A DNA stretch of 35,243 nucleotides from an uncultured Halobacteria archaeon (GTDB lineage: Archaea > Halobacteriota > Halobacteria > Halobacteriales > Haloferacaceae). The notes below the pieces were generated by a model, which had not been told where the DNA came from, made no database searches, and was given only the letters and a program-made list of their open reading frames with translations. The position numbers were made by a program, and so were the translations under genes. This document shows, piece after piece, positions 2,372 to 32,762 of this stretch. The stretch is from NCBI GenBank assembly GCA_937142015.1, contig CAKZQY010000288.1, positions 1 through 35,243 of the forward strand. Direction: 5' to 3'. Position 1 is the first letter of the stretch; the number at the start of each line of letters is the position of its first letter.

Positions 2372-2450
2372 TGAAGATTCCGCCAGCCGGCGCAGTCACG
2401 ACGACGCGTGTTGAAGATTCCGCCAGCCGGTGCAGTCACGACGACACGTG
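2372..2450. repeat. 2 x 40 bp direct repeat
   Basis: tgaagattccgccagccgg(c/t)gcagtcacgacgac(g/a)cgtg at 2372 and 2412. Confidence 0.9.
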
Positions 2451-2467
2451 CTACACTCCGTCCGTGT

Positions 2468-2575
2468 GGCGACGGGTTTTGTACCGGCGACGGGTTCTGT
2501 ACTGGCTGCGGGTTTTGTACCGGCGACGGGTTCTGTACCGGCGACGGGTTCTGTACCGGCGACGGGTTTTATACA
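2468..2575. repeat. 6 x 18 bp tandem array (ggcgacgggtt(t/c)tgtacc); last unit contains the TATA box of the M32 gene
   Basis: Unit starts at 2468, 2486, 2504, 2522, 2540, 2558; last copy reads ggcgacgggttttataca. Confidence 0.95.
2567..2574 (+). promoter_or_regulatory. Putative archaeal TATA box for leaderless M32 transcript
   Basis: ttttatac centred about 27 bp upstream of ATG 2598. Confidence 0.6.
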
Positions 2576-2597
2576 GGCGGCGGTCAGTACCGAGGGT

Positions 2598-4136
2598 ATG
2601 GCGACAGACAACAACTCCGGGGAGACGACTCCGGAGGCAGCCTACGAGACAGTCTTGGAGAAGAGCCAGCGCATTCTCGACTTAGAGAAGACAGACTTCC
2701 TGTTGCGGTGGGACTCAGACGTGATGATGCCGTCGGGGGGCGCACCGGCACGGGCGAGCCAGCGGTCGTCGATTGCGGCCGCACAGCACCGCTACCGCAC
2801 GGACGAGGAGCTCGGGGAGGCACTCGACGTGTTGGCAGACGCCGATCTGGACCGGGATCGGGCGGCAATCGTCCGTGAACTGCGTCGGGAGTACGAGGTT
2901 GAGACGAGCGTGCCGCGCGAGCTCACAGACCGTCTCGCGTCGGTCACCTCCGGCGCACACGAGGACTGGAAGCAGGCGAAGGAGGCGGCAGACTGGTCGG
3001 CGTTCGCGCCGACGATGGAGCGAGTCGTCGACACGTGGATGGACTGGGCAGACAGCGTCGATCCGGACGGTGACCCGTTCGAGACGCTGTGGAGCGAGCG
3101 GTCGGGCTACCACGCACAGCGGTACATCGACTTGGAGACAGTCGAGACGGTGTTCGACGACCTCCGAGCGGCGCTGATTCCGCTGATCGAGGATATTCGG
3201 GAGAGTGAGACGGATCTGGCGACGGACGCGTTCACCGCTCACGGCCCGTACGATACCGACACACAGCGAGCACTCTGTCGGGAGACACTCTCCCTTCTCG
3301 GTCTCGACTGGGACCGTGCGCGGCTGGACCTCGCTCCCCACCCGTTCTCGTACGGCACCCAACACGACGTGCGGATCACCACACGGTTCAGCGAGGAGAC
3401 TCCGATGGACGGACTGCAGGGTGTCCTCCACGAGTTCGGTCACACGGCCTACACCCACGGCCTCCCACAGGAGCACTACGGCGATCCGATTGGCGAACCC
3501 CGCGGGCTCGGCGTTCACGAGTCACAGTCACGGTTCTTCGAGAACCACGTCGGCCGGACGGAGGCGTTCTGGGAGTACTTCCTCCCGACAGTGCAGGACC
3601 ACTTCCCACAGCTGGAGGCGATCACCCCGCGTGAGGCCTACGAGTGTGTCAATCAGGTGTACGAGGACAACCTGATCCGCGTCTCGGCTGACGAACTCAC
3701 CTACCACATGCACATCATCCTCCGAACCGAGATCGAGCAGGCGCTCGTCGCCGGCGAGATCGACGTCGCGGACGTGCCGACCGTCTGGAACGACAAGATG
3801 GAGGCGTACCTCGGCATCCGCCCGGAGTCCGACGCAGAGGGACCGCTGCAGGACCCACACTGGGCCGGGCAGATTCCCGCGTTCATCACCTACACCGTCG
3901 GCAGCGTCCTCGCGGCACAGCTAGACGCCGCGATGCGTGCGGACCTCGACGTGGACGCGCTCGTCCGTGAGGGGAACTTCGACCCGATTCACGAGTGGCT
4001 CACCGAGCGGATTCACCGCCACGGCCAACGGTACGAGACTGACGAACTGATCGAACGCGCCACTGGAGAACCGCTCACCGCCGACTACTTCGTCGAGTAC
4101 GCCCGCGAGAAGTACGGCGAACTGTACGATCTGTGA
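2598..4136 (+). CDS. Carboxypeptidase M32 (paralogue 1)
   Basis: HEFGH zinc motif, HESQSRFFENHVGR, HPFSYG, DVRITTR, QDPHW; start moved from the ORF track to ATG 2598 by TATA spacing and homology to the other M32 starts. Confidence 0.95.
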   Translation: MATDNNSGETTPEAAYETVLEKSQRILDLEKTDFLLRWDSDVMMPSGGAPARASQRSSIAAAQHRYRTDEELGEALDVLADADLDRDRAAIVRELRREYEVETSVPRELTDRLASVTSGAHEDWKQAKEAADWSAFAPTMERVVDTWMDWADSVDPDGDPFETLWSERSGYHAQRYIDLETVETVFDDLRAALIPLIEDIRESETDLATDAFTAHGPYDTDTQRALCRETLSLLGLDWDRARLDLAPHPFSYGTQHDVRITTRFSEETPMDGLQGVLHEFGHTAYTHGLPQEHYGDPIGEPRGLGVHESQSRFFENHVGRTEAFWEYFLPTVQDHFPQLEAITPREAYECVNQVYEDNLIRVSADELTYHMHIILRTEIEQALVAGEIDVADVPTVWNDKMEAYLGIRPESDAEGPLQDPHWAGQIPAFITYTVGSVLAAQLDAAMRADLDVDALVREGNFDPIHEWLTERIHRHGQRYETDELIERATGEPLTADYFVEYAREKYGELYDL

Positions 4137-4224
4137 CAACGGACACTCCGACTGACGGTCTGTGACAACGGGCGCTCCGACTGACGGTCTGTGGCAACGG
4201 GCGCTCCGACTGACGGTCTGTGGT
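4131..4224. repeat. 3.2 x 29 bp tandem array beginning at the last codon and stop codon of M32-1
   Basis: ctgtg(a/g)caacgg(g/a)c(g/a)ctccgactgacggt at 4131, 4160, 4189, partial at 4218; stop TGA is 4134-4136. Confidence 0.93.
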
Positions 4225-4240
4225 GACGAAGCCCTCGGTC

Positions 4241-4306
4241 GACGACGACCGTCTCACGATTTCCCCGCGGAGCGACGACGACCGTCTCACGATTTCTCCG
4301 CGGGGA
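4241..4306. repeat. 2 x 33 bp direct repeat
   Basis: gacgacgaccgtctcacgattt(c/t)(c/t)ccgcgg.. at 4241 and 4274. Confidence 0.85.
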
Positions 4307-4323
4307 GCCGACGAGCGGCAGTA

Positions 4324-5310: not shown

Positions 5311-5372
5311 GTCCGCCCTCTCTCGGGGAGCGACAAAAAACCGTACAGTTGCTGTCGGACGACACACTCGTA

Positions 5373-5487
5373 CGACAGACCGACGCGACAGAGTCGCGCG
5401 ACAGGCCGATGGGACGGAGTCGCGCGACAGACCGACGGGACGGAGTCGCGCGACAGACCGACGGGACGGAGTCGCACGACAGACCGC
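5373..5487. repeat. 4.4 x 26 bp tandem array abutting the stop codon of the next SDR
   Basis: cgacagaccgacgggacggagtcgcg at 5373, 5399, 5425, 5451, 5477. Confidence 0.95.
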
Positions 5488-6275: not shown

Positions 6276-6327
6276 GCTCTGTCAATCTGGTGCGGGCTAC
6301 AAGTGCGTTTTCATACCGTCAGTCCCG

Positions 6328-6449
6328 CGTCTCTCTCGTCGACTCCGCTCTCCCGATCCAACGTCTCTCTCGTCGACTCCGCTCTCCCGGTCCCACGTCT
6401 CTCTCGTCGACTCCGCTCTCTCGGTCCCACGTCTCTCTCGCACACTCGC
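6328..6449. repeat. 3.6 x 34 bp tandem array in the divergent SDR/PHP promoter region
   Basis: cgtctctctcgtcgactccgctctcccggtccca at 6328, 6362, 6396, 6430. Confidence 0.93.
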
Positions 6450-6480
6450 TTCGCCGCGCGGTCACCGACGGTGTGTCACC

Positions 6481-6527
6481 GCTCTGCCAGTACAGTCGTA
6501 GCTTTCGACACGCTCTGCCAGTACAGT
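6481..6527. repeat. Two copies of gctctgccagtacagt, 31 bp apart; second copy runs into the putative TATA element (gttatc)
   Basis: Copies at 6481 and 6512; ATG at 6556. Confidence 0.8.
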
Positions 6528-6555
6528 TATCGGTTCGCGCGGCATCGACACTCGC

Positions 6556-7758
6556 ATGCCAGACGGGAGCCCGACAGACGAGAGCGTGACAGACAGGAGC
6601 GCGACAGACGGGAGCGTGACGGCCACCAGCGCGACAGACGGGAGCGTGACAGACGGGAGCGCGACAGACACGGGGGTGGCAGACACAGGCAGCGTCGTCA
6701 CCGTCGAGGGTCCAGTCGCGCCGGAGACACTCGGCGTGACACTCCCTCACGAACACGTGTTCTCCTCGTGGTCCGCAGGGAAGTTTCGGGAGCCAGACAG
6801 CGCCTACGAGCGGCATCTCGCTCGCCAGCCGATCAGCCTCGACACGCTCTGGTACGTCCGTCGGAACCCGACCCGCCACCGGGGGAACCTCCGGATGGAG
6901 TCGTTCGAGGACGCAGTGACCGAACTCGGATACTACTACCGCGCCGGCGGTGACACACTCGTCGACGTGACGCCGAAGGGGACCGCCGGCGACCCGTCGC
7001 GTGTCCGCGGCGTGGCCCGAGAGACCGGGGTGACTGTCGTCCACGGGACGGCATTCTACACACGCGATACACATCCAGACCGCATCGAGAACGCGACCGT
7101 CGCGGAGTTGGCCGACGAGTTCGTCGGTGACGTACGCGAGGGAATCGGCGACACGGACGTTCGGGCGGGGATACTCGGCGAGATCGGCACGAGCGGAGCG
7201 ATCCACGACCGCGAGGAGGTGGTGTTGCGCGCCGCGGCGCGGGCCTCACTCCGCACCGGCGCGCCAGTCAGCGTTCACCCGCCGTCGGACCGCGACCCGG
7301 AGTGGCCGCCGTCGCGGCGCGCGCTCCAGATTCTCGACGTTCTCGAAGCCGAAGGGCTCCCGCTCGACCGCGTCGTCGTCTGTCACATGGACCAGTCGAA
7401 GTGGCTCGGCGGGTCGATGAGGTACCAGCGCGAGATTCTCGACCGTGGCGCGTACGTCGAGTTCGACCTGTTCGGACACGAACTGTACTTCGCCGACGCG
7501 GCGGACGCACAACCCTCCGACGTCGACCGTGCCGGCTACGTCGCCGACCTCGTCGAGGACGGCTACGCGGAGCAACTCCTGCTCTCACAGGACATCTTCC
7601 TCAAACACCTCCTCCGGACGTACGGCGGACACGGCTACGCTCACATCCTGACGAACGTGCTCCCGATGTTCGACGGTGCTGGTGTCCCCGACGACGTGGT
7701 GAACCGACTCCTCACCGACAATCCGCAGCGGATGCTCACCTTCGCAGAACCACAGTGA
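6556..7758 (+). CDS. Phosphotriesterase-family (PHP-like) metal-dependent hydrolase
   Basis: GVTLPHEHVF (HxH), GILGEIGTSGAI (Glu at the bridging position as in PHP), VVVCHMD, LLLSQDIF. Confidence 0.88.
   Translation: MPDGSPTDESVTDRSATDGSVTATSATDGSVTDGSATDTGVADTGSVVTVEGPVAPETLGVTLPHEHVFSSWSAGKFREPDSAYERHLARQPISLDTLWYVRRNPTRHRGNLRMESFEDAVTELGYYYRAGGDTLVDVTPKGTAGDPSRVRGVARETGVTVVHGTAFYTRDTHPDRIENATVAELADEFVGDVREGIGDTDVRAGILGEIGTSGAIHDREEVVLRAAARASLRTGAPVSVHPPSDRDPEWPPSRRALQILDVLEAEGLPLDRVVVCHMDQSKWLGGSMRYQREILDRGAYVEFDLFGHELYFADAADAQPSDVDRAGYVADLVEDGYAEQLLLSQDIFLKHLLRTYGGHGYAHILTNVLPMFDGAGVPDDVVNRLLTDNPQRMLTFAEPQ
6562..6672 (+). repeat. In-frame 15 bp coding repeats (GSVTD/GSATD) at the N-terminus of the PHP-like hydrolase
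   Basis: gggagcgtgacagac-type units encode PTDESVTDRSATDGSVTATSATDGSVTDGSATD. Confidence 0.9.
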
Positions 7759-7838: not shown

Positions 7839-7925
7839 ACTGTCTCACTCGACTCGTCACTCGTCGGCTGTCTCACCCGATTCGTCGGCAGTCTCACTCG
7901 ATTCGTCACTCGATTCGTCGGTCGT
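7839..7925. repeat. Imperfect 21 bp repeats spanning the 3' end and stop of the creatininase-family gene
   Basis: Reverse strand GACGAATCGAGTGAGACTGCC / GACGAATCGGGTGAGACAGCC / GACGAG(TGACGAG)TCGAGTGAGACAGTC. Confidence 0.85.
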
Positions 7926-8717: not shown

Positions 8718-8799
8718 GCGCTCCCGAACGACCGACTGTGGGTTAACTGTTCGTGCGCCACGAGCGACCGAGGTGGGTCACCAATCGTGGAACACTGAC

Positions 8800-8855
8800 G
8801 AGACGAGACGAGAGAACACGAGACGAGACGAGACGAGAGAACACGAGACGAGGTC
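8800..8855. repeat. Low-complexity gacga/gagaacac repeats
   Basis: gagacgagacgagagaacacgagacgagacgagacgagagaacacgagacgag. Confidence 0.85.
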
Positions 8856-8921: not shown

Positions 8922-10541
8922 ATGGGAGCCGACACACACCAGTTCTCGGCAGTGGCAGTCGCCGAGCGCGTCCGCGAGGGAGACCTCTCGCCAGTCGCGG
9001 TCGTCGAAGCGCACCTCGACAGGATCGAGCGGCGGGACGACGATCTCGGGGCGTACATCACCCTCACACCAGAGCGCGCCCGCGAGGCGGCGAGGGAGGT
9101 CGCCGCCGCGGTCGAGCGAGACGACGACCCCGGCCCGCTCGCAGGTGTCCCAGTCGGAATCAAGGACATCGTCGACGTGGCCGGTGTCCCGACGAGTCAC
9201 GGCACGTCACTCCTCGCCGAGAACGTCGCCAGCGACGACGATCCGGCGGTTGCCAGACTCTGTGACGCCGGCGCGGTCGTCCTCGGGAAGACGAACACAC
9301 CGGCCTTCGCACGCAGTGCCGTCACGGAGAGTGACCTCGCGGGGCCCGCCGAGACGCCGTTCGCGTCGGGCTACAACGCCGGCGGCTCGTCTGGCGGCTC
9401 GGCGGCGGCCGTCGCCGCAGGACTAGCGACCGTCGGGTACGGCACCGACGGCGGCGGGTCGATTCGCATCCCCGCGTCACTGTGCGGCGTCGTCGGACAC
9501 AAGCCGACGTTCGGCCGTATCCCGTGGGTGAACCGCCCGGACGGGTTCGCACACGCCCGCGGGAACCACGCTGGCCCACTCACGCGGTCGGTCCGTGACG
9601 CTGCACTCGCGCTGGACGTTCTCGCTGGCCCGCACCACGCCGACCCGTTCAGCCTCCCCGAGCCGACACACGGACGCCAGAACGGCTCTCTCACCACCGG
9701 AGAGGGCACTGCCGCGGGAGACAGCACCGCCGTGGGAGACGACACCGCCGCGGGAGACAGCACTGCCGCGGGAGACAGCACTGCCGCGGGAGACAGCACC
9801 GCCGCGGGAGACAGCTACCTCGCTGCGACGGCGACGGACCCACAGGGGCTCTCGATTGCCTACAGCCCGGACCTCGGCGTGTTCCCCGTCGCCCCGGCCG
9901 TCGAACGGATCGTCGCAGACGCCGCTAGCGACCTCGCGGACGCGACCGCAGCGACACTCGACCGCGTCGAGATCGACCTCGGAGCGACGCTGTCGGAGTT
10001 GGTCGACCCGAAGTACCACCGCTGGGGTCCTGTCCACACCGCCGTGCTCGCGGAACACGTCGAGCGCGAACACGGCGTCGATCTGACAGCCCACCCGGAC
10101 GTGCTCGGCACGGCGTTCGTCGAGTCGATTGCGACCGGCCGCGAGATGGACGCCGTCTCGTACAAGCTCGTGAACGTTCCACACACGCGCATCTACGACG
10201 CTGTCCGGTCCGTGTTCGAGGAGTACGACCTCCTCGTCACCCCGACACTCTCCGTCGCCGGCGTGGAGAACGGGACCGACGGACCGGCGGTGATCGACGG
10301 CGACTCTGTCGACCCGTCGACCGACTGGTTCCTCACGTTCCCGTTCAACTTCGGCGGCCCCCCGGCGCTCTCCGTGCCTGCCGGGACGACCGAGGAGGGC
10401 TACCCCAGCGGGACGACCGAGCGTGGCCTCCCCGTCGGGCTCCAGATCGTCGGCCCGCGCTTCGCCGACGACACTGTCCTCGCCGCCGGCGCTGCACTGG
10501 AGCGTGCGCGACCGTGGTCACAGCTGTACGCCGATCTGTGA
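8922..10541 (+). CDS. Amidase (amidase signature family)
   Basis: GVPVGIKDIVDVAGVPTSHGTSLL, GKTNTPAF, GYNAGGSSGGSAAAVAAGL, GTDGGGSIRIPASLCGVVGHKPTFGR; taacttatgc about 27 bp upstream of ATG. Confidence 0.96.
   Translation: MGADTHQFSAVAVAERVREGDLSPVAVVEAHLDRIERRDDDLGAYITLTPERAREAAREVAAAVERDDDPGPLAGVPVGIKDIVDVAGVPTSHGTSLLAENVASDDDPAVARLCDAGAVVLGKTNTPAFARSAVTESDLAGPAETPFASGYNAGGSSGGSAAAVAAGLATVGYGTDGGGSIRIPASLCGVVGHKPTFGRIPWVNRPDGFAHARGNHAGPLTRSVRDAALALDVLAGPHHADPFSLPEPTHGRQNGSLTTGEGTAAGDSTAVGDDTAAGDSTAAGDSTAAGDSTAAGDSYLAATATDPQGLSIAYSPDLGVFPVAPAVERIVADAASDLADATAATLDRVEIDLGATLSELVDPKYHRWGPVHTAVLAEHVEREHGVDLTAHPDVLGTAFVESIATGREMDAVSYKLVNVPHTRIYDAVRSVFEEYDLLVTPTLSVAGVENGTDGPAVIDGDSVDPSTDWFLTFPFNFGGPPALSVPAGTTEEGYPSGTTERGLPVGLQIVGPRFADDTVLAAGAALERARPWSQLYADL
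9699..9814 (+). repeat. In-frame 18 bp coding repeats (GDSTAA) inside the amidase
   Basis: ggagacagcac(t/c)gccgcg units encode GEGTAAGDSTAVGDDTAAGDSTAAGDSTAAGDSTAAGDS. Confidence 0.95.
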
Positions 10542-11381: not shown

Positions 11382-11463
11382 GGTCGCACCTCGCCAGCGA
11401 CTGTGGAATAGTTTGTGGTGACGACGGTCGCCTGCAGCCCGATCGAGTCACTCGGGCGCAGGT

Positions 11464-11520
11464 GGGTGTCTTCGAGGGAGACTTCCGAAGATGGGTGTCT
11501 TCGAGGGAGACTTCCGAAGG
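11464..11520. repeat. 2 x 29 bp direct repeat
   Basis: gggtgtcttcgagggagacttccgaag at 11464 and 11493. Confidence 0.93.
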
Positions 11521-11550: not shown

Positions 11551-11913
11551 ATGGAGCCTGTCAACTTCGACGAGGCAGAGACGTACGAGCCGGAAGACGG
11601 CTGGCGGCGCGTGTCGATGGCCGGCAGCGACGAGTTCAGCTTCGAGTGGTTCGAGAAGCCGCCGGGCCACTCCTCGCCGATGCACGACCACGAGAACGAG
11701 CAGGTGTGTCTCTGTCTCCGCGGGGAACTCACACTCTACACCGACGACGATCAGGTGACGCTACAACAGTACGACTCCGTGTGGCTCGACTCCTGGGAGT
11801 CACACCGCGTCGCAAACGAGGGTGACGTGCTCGCCGTCGGGATCGACGTGTTCGCACCCGGCCGGAGCTTCGACTTCTGGACGGACCGTACTGACGACGA
11901 CGAAGCGGAGTAG
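11551..11913 (+). CDS. Cupin domain protein
   Basis: SSPMHDHENEQVCLCLRGELTLYTDDDQVTLQQYDSVWLDSWESHRV; ATG at 11551 preferred over 11491, which lies inside the repeat. Confidence 0.85.
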   Translation: MEPVNFDEAETYEPEDGWRRVSMAGSDEFSFEWFEKPPGHSSPMHDHENEQVCLCLRGELTLYTDDDQVTLQQYDSVWLDSWESHRVANEGDVLAVGIDVFAPGRSFDFWTDRTDDDEAE

Positions 11914-12026
11914 ACCGCACTGACGACGCCGAGCAGAGGCTGCACTGACGACGCCGAAGCGGAGTAGACCGCACTGACGACGCCGAAGCGGAGGCTGCAC
12001 TGACGACGCCGAAGCGGAGGCTGCAC
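11890..12026. repeat. 5 imperfect units of about 25-29 bp; first unit is the 3' end of the cupin gene including its TAG
   Basis: actgacgacg(a/c)cgaagcggag.. at 11890, 11919, 11944, 11973, 11999. Confidence 0.92.
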
Positions 12027-12077
12027 GACGAGGGGGCGAGGAGTAGCTTTATGACCACCCGCTCGCAGAGTCGGCGT

Positions 12078-13607
12078 ATGGCGAGTGAGTCGACAGAGAA
12101 GGCGTACCAGACGGTACTGGAGCACTCTCAGCGTGTCCTCGACTTGGAGAAGACCAACCAGCTGTTACGCTGGGACTCGGACGTGATGATGCCGCCGGGG
12201 GGCGCACCGGCGCGGGCGAGCCAGCGGACGACGCTGTCGACGGCACGCAACCGGTATCTCACGGCGGACGCTCTCGGCGAGGCGCTCGCGGAACTGGACG
12301 AGGCGGCGTTGGACGACGAGCGGGCCGCGGTCGTCCGCGAGGTTCGTCGGGAGCACACCACCGCCGTGAGTGTGCCCGAGGAGCTCACCACTCGGATCAG
12401 CGAGATCAACTCCCGCGCACACGAGGCGTGGAAGAGCGCGCGAGAGGCGAACGACTGGTCACAGTTCGGGCCCGTCGTCGCCGAGCACTTCGAGGCGAAG
12501 AAGGAGTGGGCACACCACGTCGATCCAGACAGCGATCCGTACGAGGTCGTCTGGAGCCAGCGGACCGGCTACCTCGCACAGCCACACATCCCGTTGGAGA
12601 CGGTCGACGAGATCTTCGACCAGCTCCGCGAGGAGTTGGTGCCGTTGATCGCGGCGATTCACGACAGCGACGTCGAGTTGGCGACCGACGCACTCCACAG
12701 CGACGAGGCCGCATTCGACGTCGAGACGCAACAGCAACTCAACCGGGCTGCGCTCGACACACTCCAGTTGGACTGGGACCGGACGCGGTTCGACGTGGCT
12801 CCACACCCGTTCTCGTTCGGCCACCCCTACGACGTGCGAATGACGACGCGGTACGACGAGTCGGATCTCACCGAGGCGCTGACCGGGACGATCCACGAGT
12901 TCGGACACACGGCGTACGCACACGGACTCCCGCGAGACGAGTACGGGACGCCGCTGGGTGAGCCACGCGGGATCGGGATTCACGAGTCGCAGTCGCGGTT
13001 CTTCGAGAACCACGTCGGACGGACGGAAGCGTTCTGGGAGCTGTTTCTCCCGACGGTGAAAGAACAGTTCCCCAGTCTGCGCGACGTGACACCGCGTGAG
13101 GCCTACGAGTGTGTCAATCAGGTGTTCGACGACAACTACATCCGAGTGGACGCGGACGAACTCACCTACCACATGCACATCATTCTCCGGACGGAGATCG
13201 AACGCGACCTGTTCCACGACCGGATCGACGCAGACGAGATTCCACAGCTCTGGAACGAGAAGATGGAGAAGTACCTCGGCATCCGGCCGGAGACCGACAA
13301 CGAAGGCTGTCTCCAAGATCCACACTGGTCACAGAGTCTCCCGGGGTTCGTCGGGTACACTATCGGGAGCGTGCTCGCGGCACAACTCGACGCGACGATG
13401 CGCGAGGAGCTGGACGAGAACGTCGACGACCTGATCCGCGAGGGACGGATCGGCCCCATCCGCGAGTGGCTGACGGAGACTGTCCACCGACACGGACAGC
13501 GCTACCGAGCAGACGAACTCGTCCGCCGTGCGACTGGCGAAGATCTCACGGCAGACTACTTCCTCGAGTACGCCCGTGAGAAGTACGGCGAACTGTACGA
13601 CCTGTGA
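12078..13607 (+). CDS. Carboxypeptidase M32 (paralogue 2)
   Basis: HEFGHTAYAHGL, HESQSRFFENHVGR, HPFSFG, QDPHW; gctttatga about 27 bp upstream of ATG 12078. Confidence 0.95.
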   Translation: MASESTEKAYQTVLEHSQRVLDLEKTNQLLRWDSDVMMPPGGAPARASQRTTLSTARNRYLTADALGEALAELDEAALDDERAAVVREVRREHTTAVSVPEELTTRISEINSRAHEAWKSAREANDWSQFGPVVAEHFEAKKEWAHHVDPDSDPYEVVWSQRTGYLAQPHIPLETVDEIFDQLREELVPLIAAIHDSDVELATDALHSDEAAFDVETQQQLNRAALDTLQLDWDRTRFDVAPHPFSFGHPYDVRMTTRYDESDLTEALTGTIHEFGHTAYAHGLPRDEYGTPLGEPRGIGIHESQSRFFENHVGRTEAFWELFLPTVKEQFPSLRDVTPREAYECVNQVFDDNYIRVDADELTYHMHIILRTEIERDLFHDRIDADEIPQLWNEKMEKYLGIRPETDNEGCLQDPHWSQSLPGFVGYTIGSVLAAQLDATMREELDENVDDLIREGRIGPIREWLTETVHRHGQRYRADELVRRATGEDLTADYFLEYAREKYGELYDL

Positions 13608-13730
13608 ACACGGCCGCGTCGACTGTGAACACAGGCCCTGTCGGCTGTGAACACGGCCGCGTCGGCTGTGAACACAGGCCCTGTCGGCTGTGAACACGGC
13701 CGCGTCGACTGTGAACGCGGCCGCGTCGGA
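13602..13730. repeat. 6 units alternating 21 and 22 bp; first unit contains the stop codon of M32-2
   Basis: ctgtgaacacggccgcgtcg(a/g) and ctgtgaacacaggccctgtcgg alternate at 13602, 13623, 13645, 13666, 13688, 13709. Confidence 0.95.
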
Positions 13731-13750
13731 TTCGTCGTGCCGAGGCGTCT

Positions 13751-13820
13751 CGGGTCGCGTCTGTCGATTTCGGGTCGCGTCTGTCGATTTCGGGTCGCGT
13801 CTGTCGGTCTCTGGTCGCGT
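13751..13820. repeat. 3.5 x 20 bp tandem array
   Basis: cgggtcgcgtctgtcgattt at 13751, 13771, 13791, partial at 13811. Confidence 0.93.
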
Positions 13821-16981: not shown

Positions 16982-17172
16982 CACGCGGGTCACCACATCC
17001 GAGACCCATCTTCACGCGGGTCACCACATCCGAGACGCACATTCACGCGGGTCACCACATCCGAGACCCACATTCACGTGGGTCACCACATCCGAGACCC
17101 ACATTCACGTGGGTCACCACATCCGAGACACAGCTTCAGGCGGGTCACCACGCCCGAGACACACGTTCAGGT
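16982..17172. repeat. 6 x 31 bp head-to-tail tandem array
   Basis: cacg(c/t)gggtcaccacatccgagacccacatt at 16982, 17013, 17044, 17075, 17106, 17137. Confidence 0.96.
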
Positions 17173-18149: not shown

Positions 18150-18261
18150 GTTCCACCTCTCGACAGTCCGCGAGATAAGTTTTCGGACCTCCGTCAGGTG
18201 TGACCACGACAGCGTCGAGCGGTCGAGGACAGTGATCTGGCCGCCGAACAACCGGCGGCGA

Positions 18262-18520
18262 CGGTCGTGGAGTCGGGCGAGCGGAGACGGCGGCCGCGGA
18301 GTCGAACGAGCGACGACGGCCGCGGAGTCGAACGAGCGACGACGGTCGCGGAGTCGAACGAGCGGAGGCAGTGGTCGCGGAGTCGAACGAGCGGAGGCAG
18401 TGGTCGCGGAGTCGAACGAGCGGAGACGGCGGCCGCGGAGTCGAACGAGCGGCGGCGGTGATCGCGGAGTCGAACGAGCGACGACGGTCGCGGAGTCGGG
18501 CGAGCGGCGGCGGTGGTCGC
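18262..18520. repeat. 9-unit array of 26/29 bp units (ggagtcgaacgagcg..cggtcgc)
   Basis: ggagtcg(a/g)(a/g)cgag at 18269, 18298, 18324, 18350, 18379, 18408, 18437, 18466, 18492: spacings 29, 26, 26, 29, 29, 29, 29, 26. Confidence 0.94.
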
Positions 18521-18556: not shown

Positions 18557-20077
18557 ATGGGTACGAGCAGTCAGCCGTACGAGACAGTCGTCTCCTACGC
18601 CGACCAGATTCACAACCTCGAACAGGCAGACCACCTCCTCCGGTGGGACTCGGACGTGGCGATGCCGCCCGGAGGGACGGCGGCACGCAGCTCACAGCGG
18701 TCGACACTGTCGAAGACGATCTACGACCTCCGCTCCAGTGCTGCCCTGGGGCGAGCCCTCGACAGGCTCGACGACGCGGCGCTGGACGACGACCAGCGCG
18801 CGGTGGTCCGCGAGGTGCGACGCCAACACGAGGTTGCTGCCGCCGTCCCCCGCGAGCTGAACCGGCGGCTGGCAGACGCCACGGCCGAGGCCCACGAGGC
18901 GTGGAAACGGGCGAAACGACAGGACGACTGGTCGACGTTCGCGCCGGCGTTCGAGCGTCACGTCGACCTGCGCAGAGAGTGGGCGGCCGCCGTCGACCCG
19001 GACGGTGACCCGTACGAGGTGCTCTGGAAGAACAAGCTCGGCTACGAGTCACAGCCGTTCGTCGATCTCGACACGGTGACGCGCGTGTTCGACCGAGTGC
19101 GTGAGACACTGGTCCCGCTGATCGAGTCGATCCGCGCCAGCGACACCGAACTGGCTGCCAACGCGTTCACCGACCGTGGCCCCTACGACACTGACGCGCA
19201 ACTACGGGCCAACCGACGGCTCCTCGATCTGGTCGGCCTAGACCGCTCGCGCGCTCGGTTCGACGAAGCGCCCCACCCGTTCTCCTACGGCAACCCGTAC
19301 GACGTGCGCCTGACGACGCGCTTCGACGAGTCGACACCCGTCGACGCCATCACCGCGACGATGCACGAGTTCGGACACACCACGTACCACCACGGACTCC
19401 CGCAGGAGGCGTACGGCACGCCGCTGGGACGCGCTCGCGGACTGACGATCCACGGCTCGCAGTCCGGCGTCTGGGAGAACCACGTCGCCAAGTCCCGGGC
19501 GTTCTGGGAGTTCCTGCTGCCAGAACTGCGCGAGGTGTTCCCACAACTCGACTCCGTCTCCGTCGCGGACGCCTACGAGGCGGTCAACACTGTCCGCGAG
19601 GAGAGTCTGATCCGTACCGCTGCCGACGAGGTGACGTACCACCTCCACGTCGTGATCCGGACCGAGATCGAACGAGCGCTCGTCGCGGGCGACATCGAGG
19701 TGAGTGACGTGCCACAAATCTGGGGCGACAAGTACGAGCGCTACCTCGGCGTGCGACCGGAGACGCACCGCGACGGACCGCTCCAAGATCCACACTGGGC
19801 TGTCAATCTGCCCGGGTTCATCAACTACACGCTGGGCCACGGCGTGCTCGCCGCACAGGTGTGGGACGCGATGGCAGCCGACGTCGGCGACGTGGACGAC
19901 CTCCTCCGGCGCGGCGAGTTCGACCCGATCCACGAGTGGATGACCGAGTCGATCCACCGACACGGACAACGGTACCGACCGCAGGAACTCGTGCAACGCG
20001 CGACTGGCCGCGAGATCACTGCCGACCCGTTCGTGTCGTACGTGACTGACAAGTTCGAGCGACTGTACGACCTGTGA
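18557..20077 (+). CDS. M32 carboxypeptidase-like protein (paralogue 3) with altered zinc-ligand motif
   Basis: HEFGHTTYHHGL retained, but IHGSQSGVWEN replaces IHESQSRFFEN; HPFSYG, DVRLTTR, QDPHW retained. Confidence 0.93.
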   Translation: MGTSSQPYETVVSYADQIHNLEQADHLLRWDSDVAMPPGGTAARSSQRSTLSKTIYDLRSSAALGRALDRLDDAALDDDQRAVVREVRRQHEVAAAVPRELNRRLADATAEAHEAWKRAKRQDDWSTFAPAFERHVDLRREWAAAVDPDGDPYEVLWKNKLGYESQPFVDLDTVTRVFDRVRETLVPLIESIRASDTELAANAFTDRGPYDTDAQLRANRRLLDLVGLDRSRARFDEAPHPFSYGNPYDVRLTTRFDESTPVDAITATMHEFGHTTYHHGLPQEAYGTPLGRARGLTIHGSQSGVWENHVAKSRAFWEFLLPELREVFPQLDSVSVADAYEAVNTVREESLIRTAADEVTYHLHVVIRTEIERALVAGDIEVSDVPQIWGDKYERYLGVRPETHRDGPLQDPHWAVNLPGFINYTLGHGVLAAQVWDAMAADVGDVDDLLRRGEFDPIHEWMTESIHRHGQRYRPQELVQRATGREITADPFVSYVTDKFERLYDL

Positions 20078-20219: not shown

Positions 20220-22067
20220 ATGGCGAACAGCCAGCCCGACGACCCAGAGCGCAGAGATTACCTAAAGTACCTCGGCAGCACCGGTCTCGTGGGAGCGGGG
20301 TCGATGTTGGCGGGGTGTGCAGGCGGTGGAAGCGGCGGTTCGACAGAGACGACGAGCGGCGGCGGCGGTGACGAGGAGACGCCGACACCGGAGAGCGGCG
20401 ACGACACCACACCGACGAGCGAGGAGTCGGCCAGTTCCGGCGGCGAGATGATCGTCGGCATGCAGGCGGACCGGACAGACCCGCTGTGGCCCCACTGGTC
20501 GTCCGACTCCACCGGTGCGAACATCATGCGGCAGATGATGAACACGCTGACGTACGTCAACGCCGACGGCGAGCTCGTGGGCGACCTCGCGGAGGGGCCG
20601 CCGGAGACGTCCGACGCACAGACGTACACGTTCAAGCTGCGCGAGGGCGTGATGTTCCACGAGCCGTACAAGCGGGAGGTGACGGCAGACGACGTGGTCA
20701 AGAACTGGTACGCGATCCTCGATCCGTCGATCCTCGCCGAGGAGAGCGAGGGCGACCTCTACGAGGAGTACCCGACGGCCGGTCGGTGGCCGTTCCCCGG
20801 ACTGCTGTGGGGTGAGAACATCGACTCGAAGAGTCGCGTGAACAAGATCGACAAGTACACCGTCGAGTTCGACTTGGCGAAGCCGAGCGCGGCGTTCCCG
20901 GCGCTGGTCAGCATCGGGCAGTGTTCCATCGTTCCGATGGAGGCCTACGAGGAGAACCCGGACAAGATCGGGGCCGTCGACTTCGGGACGTACGGCACGG
21001 GCGCGTTCCAGTACGACTCCGGGCAGGCGGGCGACTCCTACACCCTCACGCGGAACCCGGACTACTTCAAGGAGGGAGAGAACGGTCAGCTGCCGTACCT
21101 CGACCAGATCACCTACCGGATCATCCCCGAGGCGTCAGTTCGGCTGACGAACCTGAAGACCGGCGACATCCACCTCGCGGAGACGATCCCGGCGAAGGAC
21201 GTTCAGGATGTCGACAGCACGGACGGCATTCGGGCGATCTCGAAGCCCGGAGCCTCACACGTGGAGCACTACCTGAACATTCGCGGATTCGAGCCGTTCA
21301 AGCTGTACGAGGAGGACCCGCAGCCGGACGCGGAGGTGCCGGGCTACGGCACGATCAGCGAAGACGGCAAGAAGATGCGGAAGGCGGTGCGGTACGCGAC
21401 CGGTCACGAGCAGGTGATCCAGACGAAGTTCGCCGGGAAGGCCTCACCCAAGTGGGCACCCGTCCCGCCGTTCAGTTGGGCCTACCAGGAGGACAAGATC
21501 ACCAAGTACCCGTACGACCCCGAGCAGGCGAGACAGCTCATGTCGGAGACGGGACGAGACGAGTTCTCCTTCACCGCGTGGGCGACGAACCAGCCGCGGT
21601 TCGTCGACACCGCCACCATCGTCCAGCAGACGATGCGACAGGCGAACATGAACATGGAGGTGCTCCCGAAGGAGAAGTCCGCCGTCTGGGGGCCCGTCAT
21701 CGGCAACTGGGACACGAACGGTGTCAGCCACGAGGAGACCAACTACGAGTCTCACTTCGAGGACATCGGCAGTGGACTCGACCCCGCCGACTACATGAAC
21801 CAAGTGCTCGGCGGAAACGGGATCAACTACACCCACTTCGGCCACCCCGAGTCCGACGACCTGATCCTCCGTGCGGGTCAGACGACGGACCGGGAGAAGC
21901 GCAAACAGCTGTACGGTGACGCGATGGAGATCGTCACCGACCTCGTCCCGCTCAACGGGATCTGCTGGCCGTTCGTCAACCAAGGTGTCAGCGACCAGGT
22001 CCAAAACTACCAGGTCAAGCGGAGCTCCTTCCGCTTCAACCTCGCTGACGTCTCCCTCTCTGAGTAG
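20220..22067 (+). CDS. ABC transporter substrate-binding protein, dipeptide/oligopeptide family (lipoprotein)
   Basis: RRDYLKYLGSTGLVGAGSMLAGC Tat-like signal and lipobox; SBP_bac_5-type body; tatttat TATA about 28 bp upstream. Confidence 0.93.
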   Translation: MANSQPDDPERRDYLKYLGSTGLVGAGSMLAGCAGGGSGGSTETTSGGGGDEETPTPESGDDTTPTSEESASSGGEMIVGMQADRTDPLWPHWSSDSTGANIMRQMMNTLTYVNADGELVGDLAEGPPETSDAQTYTFKLREGVMFHEPYKREVTADDVVKNWYAILDPSILAEESEGDLYEEYPTAGRWPFPGLLWGENIDSKSRVNKIDKYTVEFDLAKPSAAFPALVSIGQCSIVPMEAYEENPDKIGAVDFGTYGTGAFQYDSGQAGDSYTLTRNPDYFKEGENGQLPYLDQITYRIIPEASVRLTNLKTGDIHLAETIPAKDVQDVDSTDGIRAISKPGASHVEHYLNIRGFEPFKLYEEDPQPDAEVPGYGTISEDGKKMRKAVRYATGHEQVIQTKFAGKASPKWAPVPPFSWAYQEDKITKYPYDPEQARQLMSETGRDEFSFTAWATNQPRFVDTATIVQQTMRQANMNMEVLPKEKSAVWGPVIGNWDTNGVSHEETNYESHFEDIGSGLDPADYMNQVLGGNGINYTHFGHPESDDLILRAGQTTDREKRKQLYGDAMEIVTDLVPLNGICWPFVNQGVSDQVQNYQVKRSSFRFNLADVSLSE

Positions 22068-22125
22068 CTCTCCTCTCCTCCCTCTCTGAGTAGTTCTCCT
22101 CTCTCTCCCTCTCTGAGTAGCTCTC
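22053..22125. repeat. 3 pyrimidine-rich units of about 26-27 bp; first contains the stop codon of the substrate-binding protein
   Basis: tccctctctgagtag(c/t)tctc at 22053, 22079, 22106; stop TAG is 22065-22067. Confidence 0.9.
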
Positions 22126-22154
22126 TTCCCCCTCTTGCGGCCCTCCACCACACT

Positions 22155-22315
22155 TCGACGGACGCACGGGGGCGTTTTTTTTCGACAGACGCACGATACT
22201 GTCACTCGACAGACACACGAGGCTGTTCTTCGACGGACGCACGACGTTGTTCTTCGACAGACACACGAGGCTGTTCTTCGACGGACACACGAGAGGGTTC
22301 CTCGGACGGCAGACG
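22155..22315. repeat. About 6 x 24 bp tandem array between substrate-binding protein and permease genes
   Basis: tcgac(g/a)gac(g/a)cacgag..ttct at 22155, 22182, 22206, 22230, 22254, 22278, 22302. Confidence 0.92.
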
Positions 22316-23430: not shown

Positions 23431-23432
23431 CG

Positions 23433-25498: not shown

Positions 25499-26967
25499 GC
25501 ACCGACGCGACGACAGACGGGAGTACGACGATGGACGGGAGTACGGCGACAGAGACGACGAGCGAGCGCGAGCCGCTCCTCCGTGTCGAGGGGCTGAAGA
25601 AACACTTCTCGGAGGGGGACACGCTGTTGAACCGACTGCGTCCGGACAAGACAGTCAAGACAGTTCGTGCTGTCGACGGGGTCGACCTCCGGCTGTCGCG
25701 GGGTGAGATCGTCGGACTGGTCGGCGAGTCCGGCTGTGGGAAGTCGACGTTGGCGCGCACGCTGCTCCACCTGCTCGACCCGACAGACGGCAGCGTCTAC
25801 TACGACGGAGAGGACATCACGGAGTACTCCTCCTCACAGCTGCGGGCGTTCCGCAGCGAGGCACAGATGATCTACCAGGACCCCTTCGCGTCGCTGAACC
25901 CGCGCTACACCGTCCGACGGACGCTGACGGAACCGATGTCCGTCCACGACATCGGCGACTCGAAGGCGGACAGAGTCCGGCGTGCGGTCGAACTGCTCGA
26001 ACGCGTCGGACTCGGCGAGGAACACCTCGACAGACACCCACACGAGTTCTCCGGGGGCCAGAGACAGCGCGTCGCAATCGCTCGTGCGCTCGCCGTCGAG
26101 CCGACGCTGCTGGTCGCCGACGAACCCACGTCTGCGCTGGACGTGTCCGTGCAGGCACAGATTCTCAACCTGTTGTTCGAGCTCCAGCGGGAGATGGAGT
26201 TGACCGTGTTGTTCATCACCCACGATCTCTCCGTCGTCCGGCGGATCTGTGATCGCGTCGCGGTGATGTACCTCGGCGAGATCGCCGAGGTGGCACCGAC
26301 GAGAGCGCTGTTCGGCGCGCCAGAGCACCCGTACACGCAGGCGTTGATGTCGTCGATTCCGGTGCCGAACCCCAACGCCGTCCGCGAGCGCATCCCGTTA
26401 GAGGGGGACGTGCCGACGCCAATCGACCCGCCGTCCGGCTGTTCGTTCCACCCACGGTGTCCGAAGGTGATCGCCCCGGAGAACTGGCGGTGGGGCCACG
26501 ACGCGTGGCGGCGGTTCCTCCGGTTCGAGACGCGGATGGCGAACGGCACCGTCCAGCCGGACGCGATGCGGACGGAACTCGAATCGCTCGAGGAGTCAGT
26601 CACGGACGACGACGTGATCGACGCGCTGTACGAGGAACACGTCGGCGGCTGGTCGGCGACGGACGTTACAGTCGCCGCCGACGAGACCGAGACGGAGACG
26701 GCCGCGGAGTTGCTCCCGCAGCCGGTCGAGACGCTCGTCCGTGACTCACTCACCACGCTCGTCGACGGCGACAGAGAGGCCGCAGTCCGAGCGCTCGACG
26801 ACGAGTACACCTCGATCTGTGCGACGGCTGAACCCGAGACGGTACAGACTGCAGCCGAACACCAGACCGTCTGTCACCTCTACGACGACGAGGTTCCCGG
26901 CAGCCCGGACGGCGCGAGCGAGCAGGTGCTCGCAGGCGAAACACCCACCCGGGCGGAGGACGACTGA
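25495..26967 (+). CDS. Dipeptide/oligopeptide ABC transporter ATP-binding protein, DppF type, with extended C-terminus
   Basis: [48 protein letters not shown]...; GTG start overlaps the DppD stop (GTGA). Confidence 0.95.
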   Translation: MSTDATTDGSTTMDGSTATETTSEREPLLRVEGLKKHFSEGDTLLNRLRPDKTVKTVRAVDGVDLRLSRGEIVGLVGESGCGKSTLARTLLHLLDPTDGSVYYDGEDITEYSSSQLRAFRSEAQMIYQDPFASLNPRYTVRRTLTEPMSVHDIGDSKADRVRRAVELLERVGLGEEHLDRHPHEFSGGQRQRVAIARALAVEPTLLVADEPTSALDVSVQAQILNLLFELQREMELTVLFITHDLSVVRRICDRVAVMYLGEIAEVAPTRALFGAPEHPYTQALMSSIPVPNPNAVRERIPLEGDVPTPIDPPSGCSFHPRCPKVIAPENWRWGHDAWRRFLRFETRMANGTVQPDAMRTELESLEESVTDDDVIDALYEEHVGGWSATDVTVAADETETETAAELLPQPVETLVRDSLTTLVDGDREAAVRALDDEYTSICATAEPETVQTAAEHQTVCHLYDDEVPGSPDGASEQVLAGETPTRAEDD

Positions 26968-26972
26968 TCGGT

Positions 26973-28103
26973 ATGACTGAACACTCGAATGCCGATACGA
27001 GGGAAGCGACAGCCGACGGAGACGAGACAGAGACAGAGCGGCCAGTCGACTCCGTGTTACTCAACGCGGTGACGGACGTGATCCTCGGGGAACGGAACGC
27101 CCTCGCCGACGACGCGTCGCAGGCGGTCGTCGAGGACGTACTGTCTGCAGCGACGACACCGGACGAGCGCGACCAGTTCCGTACGGCTGTCGAACAGATT
27201 CGTCGTGGCACGGACCGCGGTGGACCGGCCAGTGGTGGAGAGGCGGCGGCGAGCAGTTCGTCGGCCGAGACAGCCGCGCAGGTCGCCGACCCACGCGCGG
27301 CGGTTGCGACAGTCGTCGACGCGGTTCGAGCGGCGCTGGCAGACAGCGGTGCGCGCGTCACCGTCGACCACGTCGTTTCGATTCCAGTCGTACCGCGGGA
27401 GACGGCAGTGTACGACTTCGCGCGGACACGGGAGCCGGCAGCGCTCGACAGGCTCGATCTGTCGGAGACTGTCGCGTCACACGTGACGGACGGCGCACAA
27501 CTCGTCGCGGCGGGTGAGTTCGCGGCCGCAGCCGACGCGTTCACGCGTGCCGTCGACGAGACAGGCTCGGGTCACACCGCCGTCACGACCCGGACACTGG
27601 CCGCGTGGGCACACCACTGGGCAGGTGACGACTACGCGGCCATCGACTTCGTCGAGGAGGCGTTACACCACCACGCCGACGCGTGGCTCCCGACACTCCC
27701 CGGGTACAGTGCCGACCCGGACCCGTCGTTCGCACGCCCGGCGCAGTTCCGCGACGGGAAGTACGCCGCGATGGCAGTGCTCCGGTACACGGTCGACTGC
27801 CCGGAGGGGACGAGTTTCACGCCGTTCCTCGGCCGTGGCGAGACGCCCAGTGACGTTACCGACTGGACTGAACTCGACGGCACGGACGAGTGTACGCCGA
27901 TCCACCGCTTCGGAGCGGACCCCGTGCTCCGACTGCGACTCTCCGGCGAGGTGCCGGCGTTCCCGGGACTCCACAGCTACTACGTCGGCTCCGGAATCGT
28001 CGACCTGGAGGTGACTGAACTCCGCGAGGTGTACCGACTCCTGCTGGAAGGGCCACTCGGCGAGGAGGCCACCGAGACGATCTCTGTGGAACTTCCCGAC
28101 TGA
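26973..28103 (+). CDS. Hypothetical protein, last gene of the dpp-type operon
   Basis: 376 aa, starts 5 bp after the DppF stop; no recognised family; acidic haloarchaeal composition supports coding. Confidence 0.85.
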   Translation: MTEHSNADTREATADGDETETERPVDSVLLNAVTDVILGERNALADDASQAVVEDVLSAATTPDERDQFRTAVEQIRRGTDRGGPASGGEAAASSSSAETAAQVADPRAAVATVVDAVRAALADSGARVTVDHVVSIPVVPRETAVYDFARTREPAALDRLDLSETVASHVTDGAQLVAAGEFAAAADAFTRAVDETGSGHTAVTTRTLAAWAHHWAGDDYAAIDFVEEALHHHADAWLPTLPGYSADPDPSFARPAQFRDGKYAAMAVLRYTVDCPEGTSFTPFLGRGETPSDVTDWTELDGTDECTPIHRFGADPVLRLRLSGEVPAFPGLHSYYVGSGIVDLEVTELREVYRLLLEGPLGEEATETISVELPD

Positions 28104-28235
28104 CCACCACTGTCGCCACCACAACGGGTCGTTGTCGACCGACCACTGTCGCCACCACAACGGGTCGTTGTCGCCCGACCACCATCGTCGCCACAACGGG
28201 TCGTTGTCGACCGACCACAACCTCGCTACCGCAAC
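28097..28235. repeat. About 4 units of 36-39 bp; first unit contains the stop codon of the hypothetical gene; the first three units contain a 6 bp stem hairpin acaacg-ggt-cgttgt
   Basis: cgac(t/c)gacca..ctgtcgccaccacaacgggtcgttgt at 28097, 28136, 28172, and a diverged unit at 28208. Confidence 0.93.
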
Positions 28236-28282: not shown

Positions 28283-28424
28283 AGCACGACCCGGCGGGGG
28301 TCAATCCGCGCCCATCGGCACGACCCGGCGGGGGTCAATCCGCGCACATCGGCACGCCGCGGCGGGGGTCAATCCGCGCCCATCGGCACGTCGCGGCGGG
28401 AGTCAACCCTCGCCCATCGGCACG
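28283..28424. repeat. About 4 x 34 bp array whose last unit (plus-strand view) is the 3' end of the RidA gene
   Basis: ggcacgacccggcgggggtcaatccgcgcccatc at about 28283, 28317, 28351, 28385; RidA stop TGA is 28405-28403. Confidence 0.94.
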
Positions 28425-28789: not shown

Positions 28790-28868
28790 GGGTCACACGC
28801 ACACCCCTCGGACATAAGTGAACCGGCGTCCGGCGACGGTCCTCTCCGGCATCCGGCCCAGTCGTCTC

Positions 28869-30662: not shown

Positions 30663-30665
30663 AAA

Positions 30666-30796
30666 GTTCTCTGCTTCTCTCCCTGCTTCCCTCCCTTCCT
30701 TCCTTTCTCCCTACTTCCCTCCCTCCCTTCCTTTCTCCCTGTCTCTCTCCCTACTTCCCTCCCTCTCTTCCTTTCTCCCTGTCTCTCTCCCTGTCT
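30666..30796. repeat. Polypyrimidine/polypurine tract with 40 bp internal periodicity
   Basis: ctacttccctccct(c/t)..cttcctttctccctgtctctctcc at 30711 and 30751 (1 mismatch visible), degenerate copy upstream. Confidence 0.93.
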
Positions 30797-30850
30797 GTCG
30801 TGATCTCCGGGGGGACAACACCTTTCTCGCCCGGAGCCGAGACGACAGTC

Positions 30851-31591
30851 GTGACCGGACAGACCGCGGCACTGGTGACCGGCGCGGCGAGTGGTATCGG
30901 GAAGTGCGTCGTCGAGCGGTTCGCGGCAGACGACCGACACGACGTGGTCGCCTGCATCGACATCGATCCGGCGGTGACCGAGGTCGCCGACGAGTTGGGA
31001 GCCGGGGTGAGGGCCTACGAGTGTTCCGTAACGGACTACGACGCGGTCGGTGCAGTCGTCGAGCAGGTCGAGGCGAACGCCGCGCTCCAGTCTGTCGTGA
31101 ACAACGCGGGGACGAGTCGCTACGCGTGGATCGGCGACCTCGACCCCGAGGAGTGGCACGAGATTCTCGACGTGAATCTCACCGGCCAGTACAACGTCGC
31201 GCACCACGCCACGCCGCCGATGTTCGAACGCGAGGAGGGGTATCTCGTCAACGTCTCCAGCGGCGCGGGACAACACGGCTCTGCCAGCGGCGGTGTCCAC
31301 TACTCCGCTGCGAAGGCTGGTGTTCTCGGCCTCACGAAGGGACTGGCCAAACAGCTCGCGCCACACGTTCGAGTCAACTGTGTCGTTCCGGGGCTGATCG
31401 ACACGCCGCTGACGACTGACTCCGGACTGTGGGACGAGGACGCGATTGCGGCGTTCGAAGACGATCTCCCGCTGGGCCGCGTCGGTGATCCCGACGAAGT
31501 CGCGCGTGTGATCGAGTTCTGCTGTGGCCCCGGCGCGGCGTACGTGACCGGGAGCGTGCTCAACGTCGACGGCGGCGGCGCACTGTCGTAG
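30851..31591 (+). CDS. SDR family oxidoreductase
   Basis: TAALVTGAASGIGKCVVERFAADD...SVVNNAGTSRYAW...YSAAKAGVLGLTKGLAKQLAPHVRVNCVVPGLIDTPL; GTG 30851 inferred start. Confidence 0.93.
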   Translation: MTGQTAALVTGAASGIGKCVVERFAADDRHDVVACIDIDPAVTEVADELGAGVRAYECSVTDYDAVGAVVEQVEANAALQSVVNNAGTSRYAWIGDLDPEEWHEILDVNLTGQYNVAHHATPPMFEREEGYLVNVSSGAGQHGSASGGVHYSAAKAGVLGLTKGLAKQLAPHVRVNCVVPGLIDTPLTTDSGLWDEDAIAAFEDDLPLGRVGDPDEVARVIEFCCGPGAAYVTGSVLNVDGGGALS

Positions 31592-31606
31592 CTGGCTGTC
31601 CGACGC

Positions 31607-32587
31607 TCACCGCGTGAGGAACCCGGAGACGACGTCCACCCACTCGTCTCGTCGGTCGGTCATCACGTGGTGGTCGGCGTCGTGCCAGAGGTGGAGCTCT
31701 GCCGTCGGCATCGTCTCGAAGAGGTGAACGCCCTGATCGAACCCCTCGTCGCGCCGGTAGTCTGGCCTCGTCTCGCGGTGGACTGTCACGTGTTTCTTCG
31801 CCGGGTCGGCCGCAGGCTCGTCAGTGCGCCGCGGCCACCCCTCGTACGGTCGCGTACTCCACGTGATCAGTGTCGGCTGTGAGACCTCCGTCGCCGCCTC
31901 GGTGACGTGTCTGCCGTCGTACGACAGCGCCTCGTTGAGCGACGCGGCGTCCGTCTGGAGACGGTCACTGCGGGCGTTCGTCCACTCCCAGTTGCGCTGT
32001 TGGATCTCGAACACTCTGTCGACGGCGTCTTCGGGAATGTCACCTCGGAACAGTGGGTGGTTCTCCGGGCGAACGAGGTGGTGGTCGCGGAACCCTTCGA
32101 GGAACTCACGAGCGCCCTCCCGCGTCGGCGCGTCCGACTGCAAGCTCCCGGGCACCTCGTTCGACGCGAGTTTCCGCGAGGCAGACCCCGCGTTGACGAC
32201 GATCAGGTCGTCGACGAGCGTCGGGTGTGCCAACGCGAGATACACCGCCTGGTAGCCCGCCCGACTGTTGCCCGCCACGGCGACCGAGTCGAGACCGACA
32301 GCGCGACAGAAGTCGGCGACGAACTCCGCCCGCTCCCGTGGCAGGTGATCGCGGTCGCCACGCGGCGGTGTGAATCCGAACCCCGGCTGGTCGAGCGCGA
32401 TCACACGACAGTGGTCGCTCAACGGACCGATCACTGCTCCCCAGTTGAGCTCTGCACACGAGGTGAGTCCTCCCCCGTGGAGGAGAACCACTGGCTTCCC
32501 CTCGCCCTCGTCGTAGTAGTGCGTGTCGACGCCGTCGACAGTGACTGTCTCACCGCGCTCTACGAGCTCGTGCCACTCGTCGGTCAT
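31607..32587 (-). CDS. Alpha/beta fold hydrolase
   Basis: GKPVVLLHGGGLTSCAELNWGAVIGPLSDHCRVIALDQPGFGFT...VAVAGNSRAGYQAVYLALAHP (Ser nucleophile elbow), HDADHHVMTDRRDEWVD. Confidence 0.93.
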   Translation of the reverse strand: MTDEWHELVERGETVTVDGVDTHYYDEGEGKPVVLLHGGGLTSCAELNWGAVIGPLSDHCRVIALDQPGFGFTPPRGDRDHLPRERAEFVADFCRAVGLDSVAVAGNSRAGYQAVYLALAHPTLVDDLIVVNAGSASRKLASNEVPGSLQSDAPTREGAREFLEGFRDHHLVRPENHPLFRGDIPEDAVDRVFEIQQRNWEWTNARSDRLQTDAASLNEALSYDGRHVTEAATEVSQPTLITWSTRPYEGWPRRTDEPAADPAKKHVTVHRETRPDYRRDEGFDQGVHLFETMPTAELHLWHDADHHVMTDRRDEWVDVVSGFLTR

Positions 32588-32677
32588 GTGAACGGTGTGC
32601 GCGACGTGAGGTGAATGCGTAAAGCTTCCGCTGGTGACGCGCCCTGTCGAGATCTCGTCGCCGTCACGGCCCGTCCT

Positions 32678-32762
32678 ACCTCGTCGTCCTCACGCTCCGT
32701 CCACCTCGTCGTCCTCACGCTCCGCGGAGGCACTGTCACCCTCACACTCCGCGGAGGCACTG
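32678..32762. repeat. 25 bp direct repeat crossing the stop codon of creatininase 2, plus an internal coding repeat (DSASAE)
   Basis: acctcgtcgtcctcacgctccg at 32678 and again 25 bp on; ctccgcggaggcactgtc twice. Confidence 0.88.

Follow-up and report, generated by a model that had tools for sequence, protein, structure and literature searches.

Pervasive tandem repeats with units private to each locus are a striking feature of the extrachromosomal Borg elements (Schoelmerich et al. 2023, PMC9879509). In these, repeat units within open reading frames (ORFs) are always divisible by three and intergenic units are not, the first unit often lies within a gene end, partial copies flank the arrays, arrays are rarely common to close relatives and coding repeats are of low complexity and free of cysteine. 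Perfect arrays (at least three units and at least 50 nt) number on average 46 per 0.83 Mb, about 55 per Mb. A survey with the program SATFIND (PMC6749651) described short-unit tandem arrays and, for Halobacteria, coding repeats with units that are multiples of three; the two haloarchaea in its table have 5–9 satellites per Mb. In the chromosome of the haloarchaeon Haloquadratum walsbyi, deletions between direct repeats of 4–20 bp were found (PMC3119063), and yeast mutants in rad27, the FEN1 homologue, form ABA to ABABA duplications with a unique part of 1–91 bp and a repeat of 1–21 bp (PMC5677150). In the literature searched, pervasive arrays between haloarchaeal genes were not described directly. 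Here, we describe a graded version of the Borg feature on haloarchaeal chromosomes, starting from the 35,243-bp contig CAKZQY010000288.1 (C288) of an uncultured member of the Haloferacaceae, which was analysed as a whole and is called the window in the following. Its tandem arrays very probably result from an elevated genome-wide rate of tandem duplication of 15–45 bp, expanded by slippage and filtered by purifying selection.

The haloarchaeal genome to which the window belongs comprises 4.34 Mb in 450 contigs. It was sampled by the window and 40 plus 10 further contigs (539 kb, 12% of the genome; G000); contigs reading as N, as observed for three, were excluded before reaching 539 kb. Genes were called with our own hexamer-based caller, trained on G000 itself, whose calls in the window agreed with ORFs bearing Pfam domains. 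Two genomes of the same genus (G001 and G002), for which genes were called with a seeded model, and four of the same family (G013, G004, G005 and G017) served for comparison; samples outside the genus were small (60 kb). Arrays were detected with Tandem Repeats Finder (TRF) and genome-wide density was counted at a TRF score of at least 60. In the window, 47 TRF rows merged into 26 arrays, of which 21 were intergenic or at gene edges and five wholly coding (Table 1). The arrays of the original prediction are real and have unrelated units; shuffled sequence yielded almost none. Of the window's gaps with a length of at least 30 bp, 15/23 carry an array, in line with the claim that most intergenic regions do so; genome-wide, the claim fails, with 94/309 gaps (about 30%). 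All units in the window are directly adjacent, without unique spacers between constant repeats, and a CRISPR array was rejected on these grounds; a search of the window against Rfam gave no RNA family.

In G000, 270 arrays were found, equivalent to 50 per 100 kb, which covered 12.7% of the noncoding and 3.2% of the coding bases. At a TRF score of 50, 131 noncoding and 127 coding arrays were observed in the genome sample compared to approximately 2 and 13 in dinucleotide/codon shuffles, and at a score of 120 there were 133 arrays and none in the shuffles. Units measured 15–45 bp, most commonly 24–36 bp, and few were shorter than 15 bp. Within the genus, density amounted to 50 (G000), 32 (G001) and 18 (G002) arrays per 100 kb; within the family it was 47 in G013 and about 8–10 in G004, G005 and G017, and unrelated bacterial and non-halophilic archaeal loci had 4 and 1, respectively. 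In the sample of G013 (L121-L123), which belongs to another genus, arrays were equally dense and their units shorter (median 22 vs 29 bp), suggesting that the preferred duplication length is lineage-specific.

The arrays arose in place, are private to each locus and lineage-specific. Among 232 units compared, only three partial matches of 16–18 bp connected different loci; the view that no single repeat family had spread is thus upheld, and a dispersed satellite family was rejected, since related units at many loci were not found. Orthologous gaps were compared with G001 and G002 in 41 cases, some gaps being counted twice, once per relative: an array was present only in G000 in ten, only in the relative in one and in both in none. 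In nine of the ten cases with an array only in G000, the gap of G000 was longer than that of the relative. At L074:10453-10544, genes that overlap by 4–8 bp in G001 and G002 are now 92 bp apart in G000, and the gap is built of 32-bp units with ATGA at the end of each. The four-base ATGA stop/start overlap of a relative has here been multiplied into several ATGA junctions, which possibly affects translational coupling. Further, three paralogous M32 genes in the window have near-identical ends through the stop codon, yet the array there has units of 29 bp in one gene and of 43 bp in another, and the third gene lacks an array.

Reading frame and promoters limit where arrays occur. The periods of all 126 coding arrays were divisible by three, whereas those of the 132 noncoding arrays gave remainders modulo three of 49/43/40. 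Cys was absent from the encoded repeats, which were rich in Asp, Thr, Ser and Gly. Array coverage was 0.13–0.18 in the first 60 bp past stop codons, with 0.18 at +30 to +60; upstream of start codons it was 0.17 at −130 to −110 and only 0.02 in the final 10 bp, and core promoters and starts were nearly free of arrays. The sole perfect two-copy duplication of the window, which is also its youngest-looking array, crosses the cupin start codon; as its period of 29 bp is not a multiple of three, a second ATG further upstream would not share the reading frame of the gene. In two sets of orthologous proteins (L036:7804-10116 and L026:14022-15989), arrays within the coding sequence occupy the same linker in several genomes of the same genus but differ in unit length (45 vs 30 bp, and 36 and 24 vs 27, 12 and 18 bp); judged by these unit lengths, the linkers carry recurrent independent arrays at tolerated sites.

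The arrays share with Borg repeats the privacy of the units, the frame rule (126/126 coding, 49/132 noncoding units divisible by three), a first unit that often lies within a gene end, flanking partial copies, rare occurrence in close relatives (0/41) and cysteine-free, low-complexity coding repeats. Unlike in Borgs, the units are GC-rich without an A bias (63.9% GC in noncoding units vs 60.0% in array-free noncoding DNA) and perfect arrays are few (seven in a 468-kb sample, 15 per Mb); the many imperfect arrays are presumably older than the perfect ones. Moreover, the arrays reside on contigs with chromosomal genes, such as a MutS-family gene on contig C10, and not on a linear Borg element, and their density is shared by relatives in graded form. 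Since the signature matches but A bias, perfection and replicon do not, the system works like Borg repeats but is not one. A SATFIND-like count gave 57 per Mb in our re-implementation, which is not the original program, and in contrast to the SATFIND survey, arrays were denser in noncoding than in coding DNA. The deletions in Haloquadratum are the reciprocal of the duplication proposed here, but pervasive arrays were not described there. The rad27 duplications were seen in a eukaryotic mutant, whereas FEN1 is present here.

A founding duplication could arise anywhere in the genome. The probable event is out-of-register re-annealing of a nascent strand or an Okazaki-type flap at a short direct repeat, after which unequal slippage would add whole and partial copies. 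Purifying selection would then set which duplications persist: those in core promoters or across starts would mostly be lost, out-of-frame ones in genes would be lost, in-frame ones would survive within low-complexity stretches rich in Asp, Thr, Ser and Gly, and those elsewhere in a gap and across a stop codon would be tolerated. The data show that the arrays originated locally and privately, are specific to the lineage, are placed uniformly and are subject to frame and promoter filters; we infer both the enzymatic route and a raised rate of duplication rather than retention alone. In two-copy arrays, the extra partial copy had a median length of 10.5 bp compared to 1 bp in simulated blunt duplications, which fits ABA to ABABA duplication at short direct repeats, and likewise partial copies gained by later expansion.

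Several observations speak against an elevated, selection-filtered duplication rate or weaken the case for it. The lengths of the partial copies were nearly uniform over the unit and are therefore no proof on their own that microhomology primed the first step. Since the genome has both FEN1 and MutS-family genes, the array density is not explained by a simple loss of repair, and the idea that either homologue had been lost was rejected. The word GTCGA occurred in 41 of 123 noncoding units vs 20.5 expected (~2e-3 after correction for 405 words) and the purine strand asymmetry of the units was 0.094 vs 0.077 in array-free gaps, neither of which is predicted by uniform neutrality. Divergent gaps were slightly poorer in arrays, although the difference was not significant. 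Last, all gene calls depend on a caller of our own applied to 12% of the genome.

Among the alternatives, a dedicated enzymatic or mobile-element-linked system that founds the duplications, for example by staggered nicking and gap filling as speculated for Borg elements, fares best but is improbable. The narrow range of unit sizes with few units under 15 bp, the mild enrichment of GTCGA and the strong differences in density within the genus would agree with such a system, but no motif at the unit ends could be established, no candidate enzyme was found and density among the relatives is graded, not on/off.

It is very improbable that selection maintains the arrays as terminators, insulators or binding sites for proteins in multiplied form; the original prediction had suggested the first two. 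Although arrays occupy noncoding DNA and are frequent past stop codons, there is no common motif or family, the RNA folding energy of the units equals that of the control, and arrays are equally present upstream of promoters. Runs of TTTT started at 0 of 5540 array positions after stops compared to 35 of 19271 non-array positions, and no array was conserved in the 41 comparisons of orthologous gaps. Intrinsic (U-tract) terminators were rejected because the array positions after stops lack T-runs and the units have no excess of hairpins. A function of the arrays as terminators is therefore unlikely.

The original prediction also proposed that a process acting at gene ends, such as slippage or break repair at sites of transcription termination, makes the arrays, since many of them capture or abut a stop codon. 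Base-by-base inspection confirmed that the array includes the stop codon of M32-1, cupin, M32-2, SBP and RidA. The hypothetical gene is a marginal case: its array starts within the stop codon, overlaps it by 2 nt and does not repeat the TGA in its later units. Of the two creatininase stops said to be captured, that of creatininase-2 is, but the array at creatininase-1 is wholly coding and is separated by 1 nt from the stop (7857-7859). The array next to the SDR gene abuts the stop exactly (5486/5487), whereas that at the formamidase gene ends 8 bp short of it (17169/17178). About eight arrays of the window overlap or abut stops, and a naive placement null gave 40 stop overlaps observed vs 15 expected. 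This excess is false because an array lengthens the gap that contains it; for the same reason, the test of stop enrichment against shuffled positions that had been proposed would have returned a false positive (53 vs 25). In a corrected null, arrays were collapsed to one unit and placed at random within their own gap; a gene end could be entered by at most one unit, and a promoter zone of 50 bp was barred. The excess then disappeared, with 39 stop overlaps observed vs 38.7 expected (p = 0.51) and 54 array edges within 30 bp of a stop vs 55.2 expected; with a promoter zone of 30 bp, 34.7 overlaps were expected (p = 0.14). The depth of overlap into the gene was uniform from zero to one unit (Kolmogorov–Smirnov p = 0.56) and exceeded 1.1 units in only 2 of 42 cases, as would be expected if the true stop were just part of the first copy.

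Rates in the different classes of gaps were similar as well. Arrays were found genome-wide in 21/76 divergent, 52/177 codirectional and 21/56 convergent gaps, corresponding to 1.70 ± 0.36, 2.29 ± 0.29 and 2.52 ± 0.48 arrays per allowed kb (2.16, 2.34 and 2.47 in the first sample), and in the window in 6/8, 6/9 and 3/6 gaps, respectively. Divergent gaps have no gene end but hold the longest array of the window and five others, and in-frame arrays are common within genes (126). A process at gene ends is already refuted as the main cause of the arrays, and we consider it scarcely credible. Capture of stop codons is a by-product of short gaps, not of targeting to gene ends, and a stop can be spanned without harm, since the gene end remains intact in the first copy and the extra copies fall downstream.

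Artefacts of metagenome assembly are a negligible explanation: the genome is split into 450 contigs and, of 89 contig ends, 19 fall inside an array or no more than 30 bp away from one (7.2 expected), but substitutions differ between copies, coding arrays always keep the frame and the near-complete relatives G001, G002 and G013 have arrays of similar kind and placement. The frequency of arrays at contig ends makes assembled copy numbers unreliable and they are probably too low; the fragmentation of the assembly is in turn partly caused by the arrays. No named plasmids close to the window were found when these were sought for a comparison of copy numbers.

The graded occurrence of pervasive private repeats on haloarchaeal chromosomes makes their origin testable in culturable relatives. 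It is conceivable, albeit doubtful, that a chromosomal tandem-duplication mutator operates in some haloarchaeal lineages, with a duplication mechanism of its own that acts across the whole chromosome and makes gaps and protein linkers grow continually; if true, the Borg repeat process would have a counterpart that is free-living and culturable. Given the strict frame and promoter filters, the arrays are a natural readout of sites that tolerate insertions of 15–45 bp. As a caution, before repeats are tested for proximity to gene ends, the length that each repeat has added to its own gap must be removed.

Table 1 Tandem arrays in the window, with unit length, copy number and position relative to genes.
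Feature	Position	Strand	Evidence
40 bp x 2.0, divergent gap	2372..2450		TRF and gap class
18 bp x 6.4, predicted 5' end of M32-1	2468..2583		TRF, Pfam
29 bp x 3.5, over M32-1 stop (TGA 4134-4136)	4121..4236		TRF, base check
33 bp x 2.3, second, unrelated array, convergent gap after M32-1	4240..4314		TRF
26 bp x 4.4, abutting SDR stop (minus strand)	5373..5486		TRF, base check
34 bp x 3.5, divergent gap	6322..6440		TRF and gap class
15/30 bp, 5' end of phosphotriesterase-family ORF, ahead of Pfam domain	6560..6685		TRF
21 bp x 2.2, in-frame, creatininase-1 C-terminus, stop not included	7861..7919	-	TRF
25 bp x 2.6, divergent gap	8790..8852		TRF and gap class
18 bp x 6.1, in-frame within amidase gene	9706..9815	+	TRF
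29 bp, perfect duplication across cupin start codon (ATG 11491)	11463..11519	+	TRF
54 (26/28) bp, over cupin stop (TAG 11911-11913)	11884..12031		TRF, base check
43 (21/22) bp, over M32-2 stop (TGA 13605-13607)	13602..13729		TRF, base check
20 bp x 3.5, second, unrelated array, convergent gap after M32-2	13750..13820		TRF
31 bp x 6.1, 8 bp from formamidase stop	16982..17169		TRF, base check
29/55 bp, longest array (266 bp), divergent gap, formamidase/M32-3 starts	18255..18520		TRF and gap class
26 bp x 2.8, over SBP stop (TAG 22065-22067)	22051..22125		TRF, base check
24/48/72 bp, codirectional gap after SBP	22153..22293		TRF
18 bp x 2.6, across predicted start of second ABC ATPase	25508..25553	+	TRF
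36 bp x 3.3, from stop of hypothetical gene (TGA 28101-28103)	28102..28218		TRF
34 bp x 4.1, over RidA stop (28403-28405, minus strand)	28284..28424		TRF
40 bp x 3.0, pyrimidine-rich, divergent gap	30671..30796		TRF and gap class
25 and 27 bp, arrays over creatininase-2 stop (32690-32692, minus strand)	32654..32764		TRF

Since the match to the Pfam M32 domain begins at residue 76 of the longest ORF, the true N-terminus of M32-1 is probably located at or downstream of the array that covers its predicted 5' end. The three M32 carboxypeptidase paralogs of the window (2466-4136, 12078-13607 and 18557-20077) share the contig with two creatininases, an amidase, a formamidase, RidA and an oligopeptide-type ABC transporter, a set that looks like a cluster for the catabolism of peptides and amides. 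At the end of the contig, a weakly phage-integrase-like protein (34405-35226) is encoded, preceded by an array-free gap of 827 bp.

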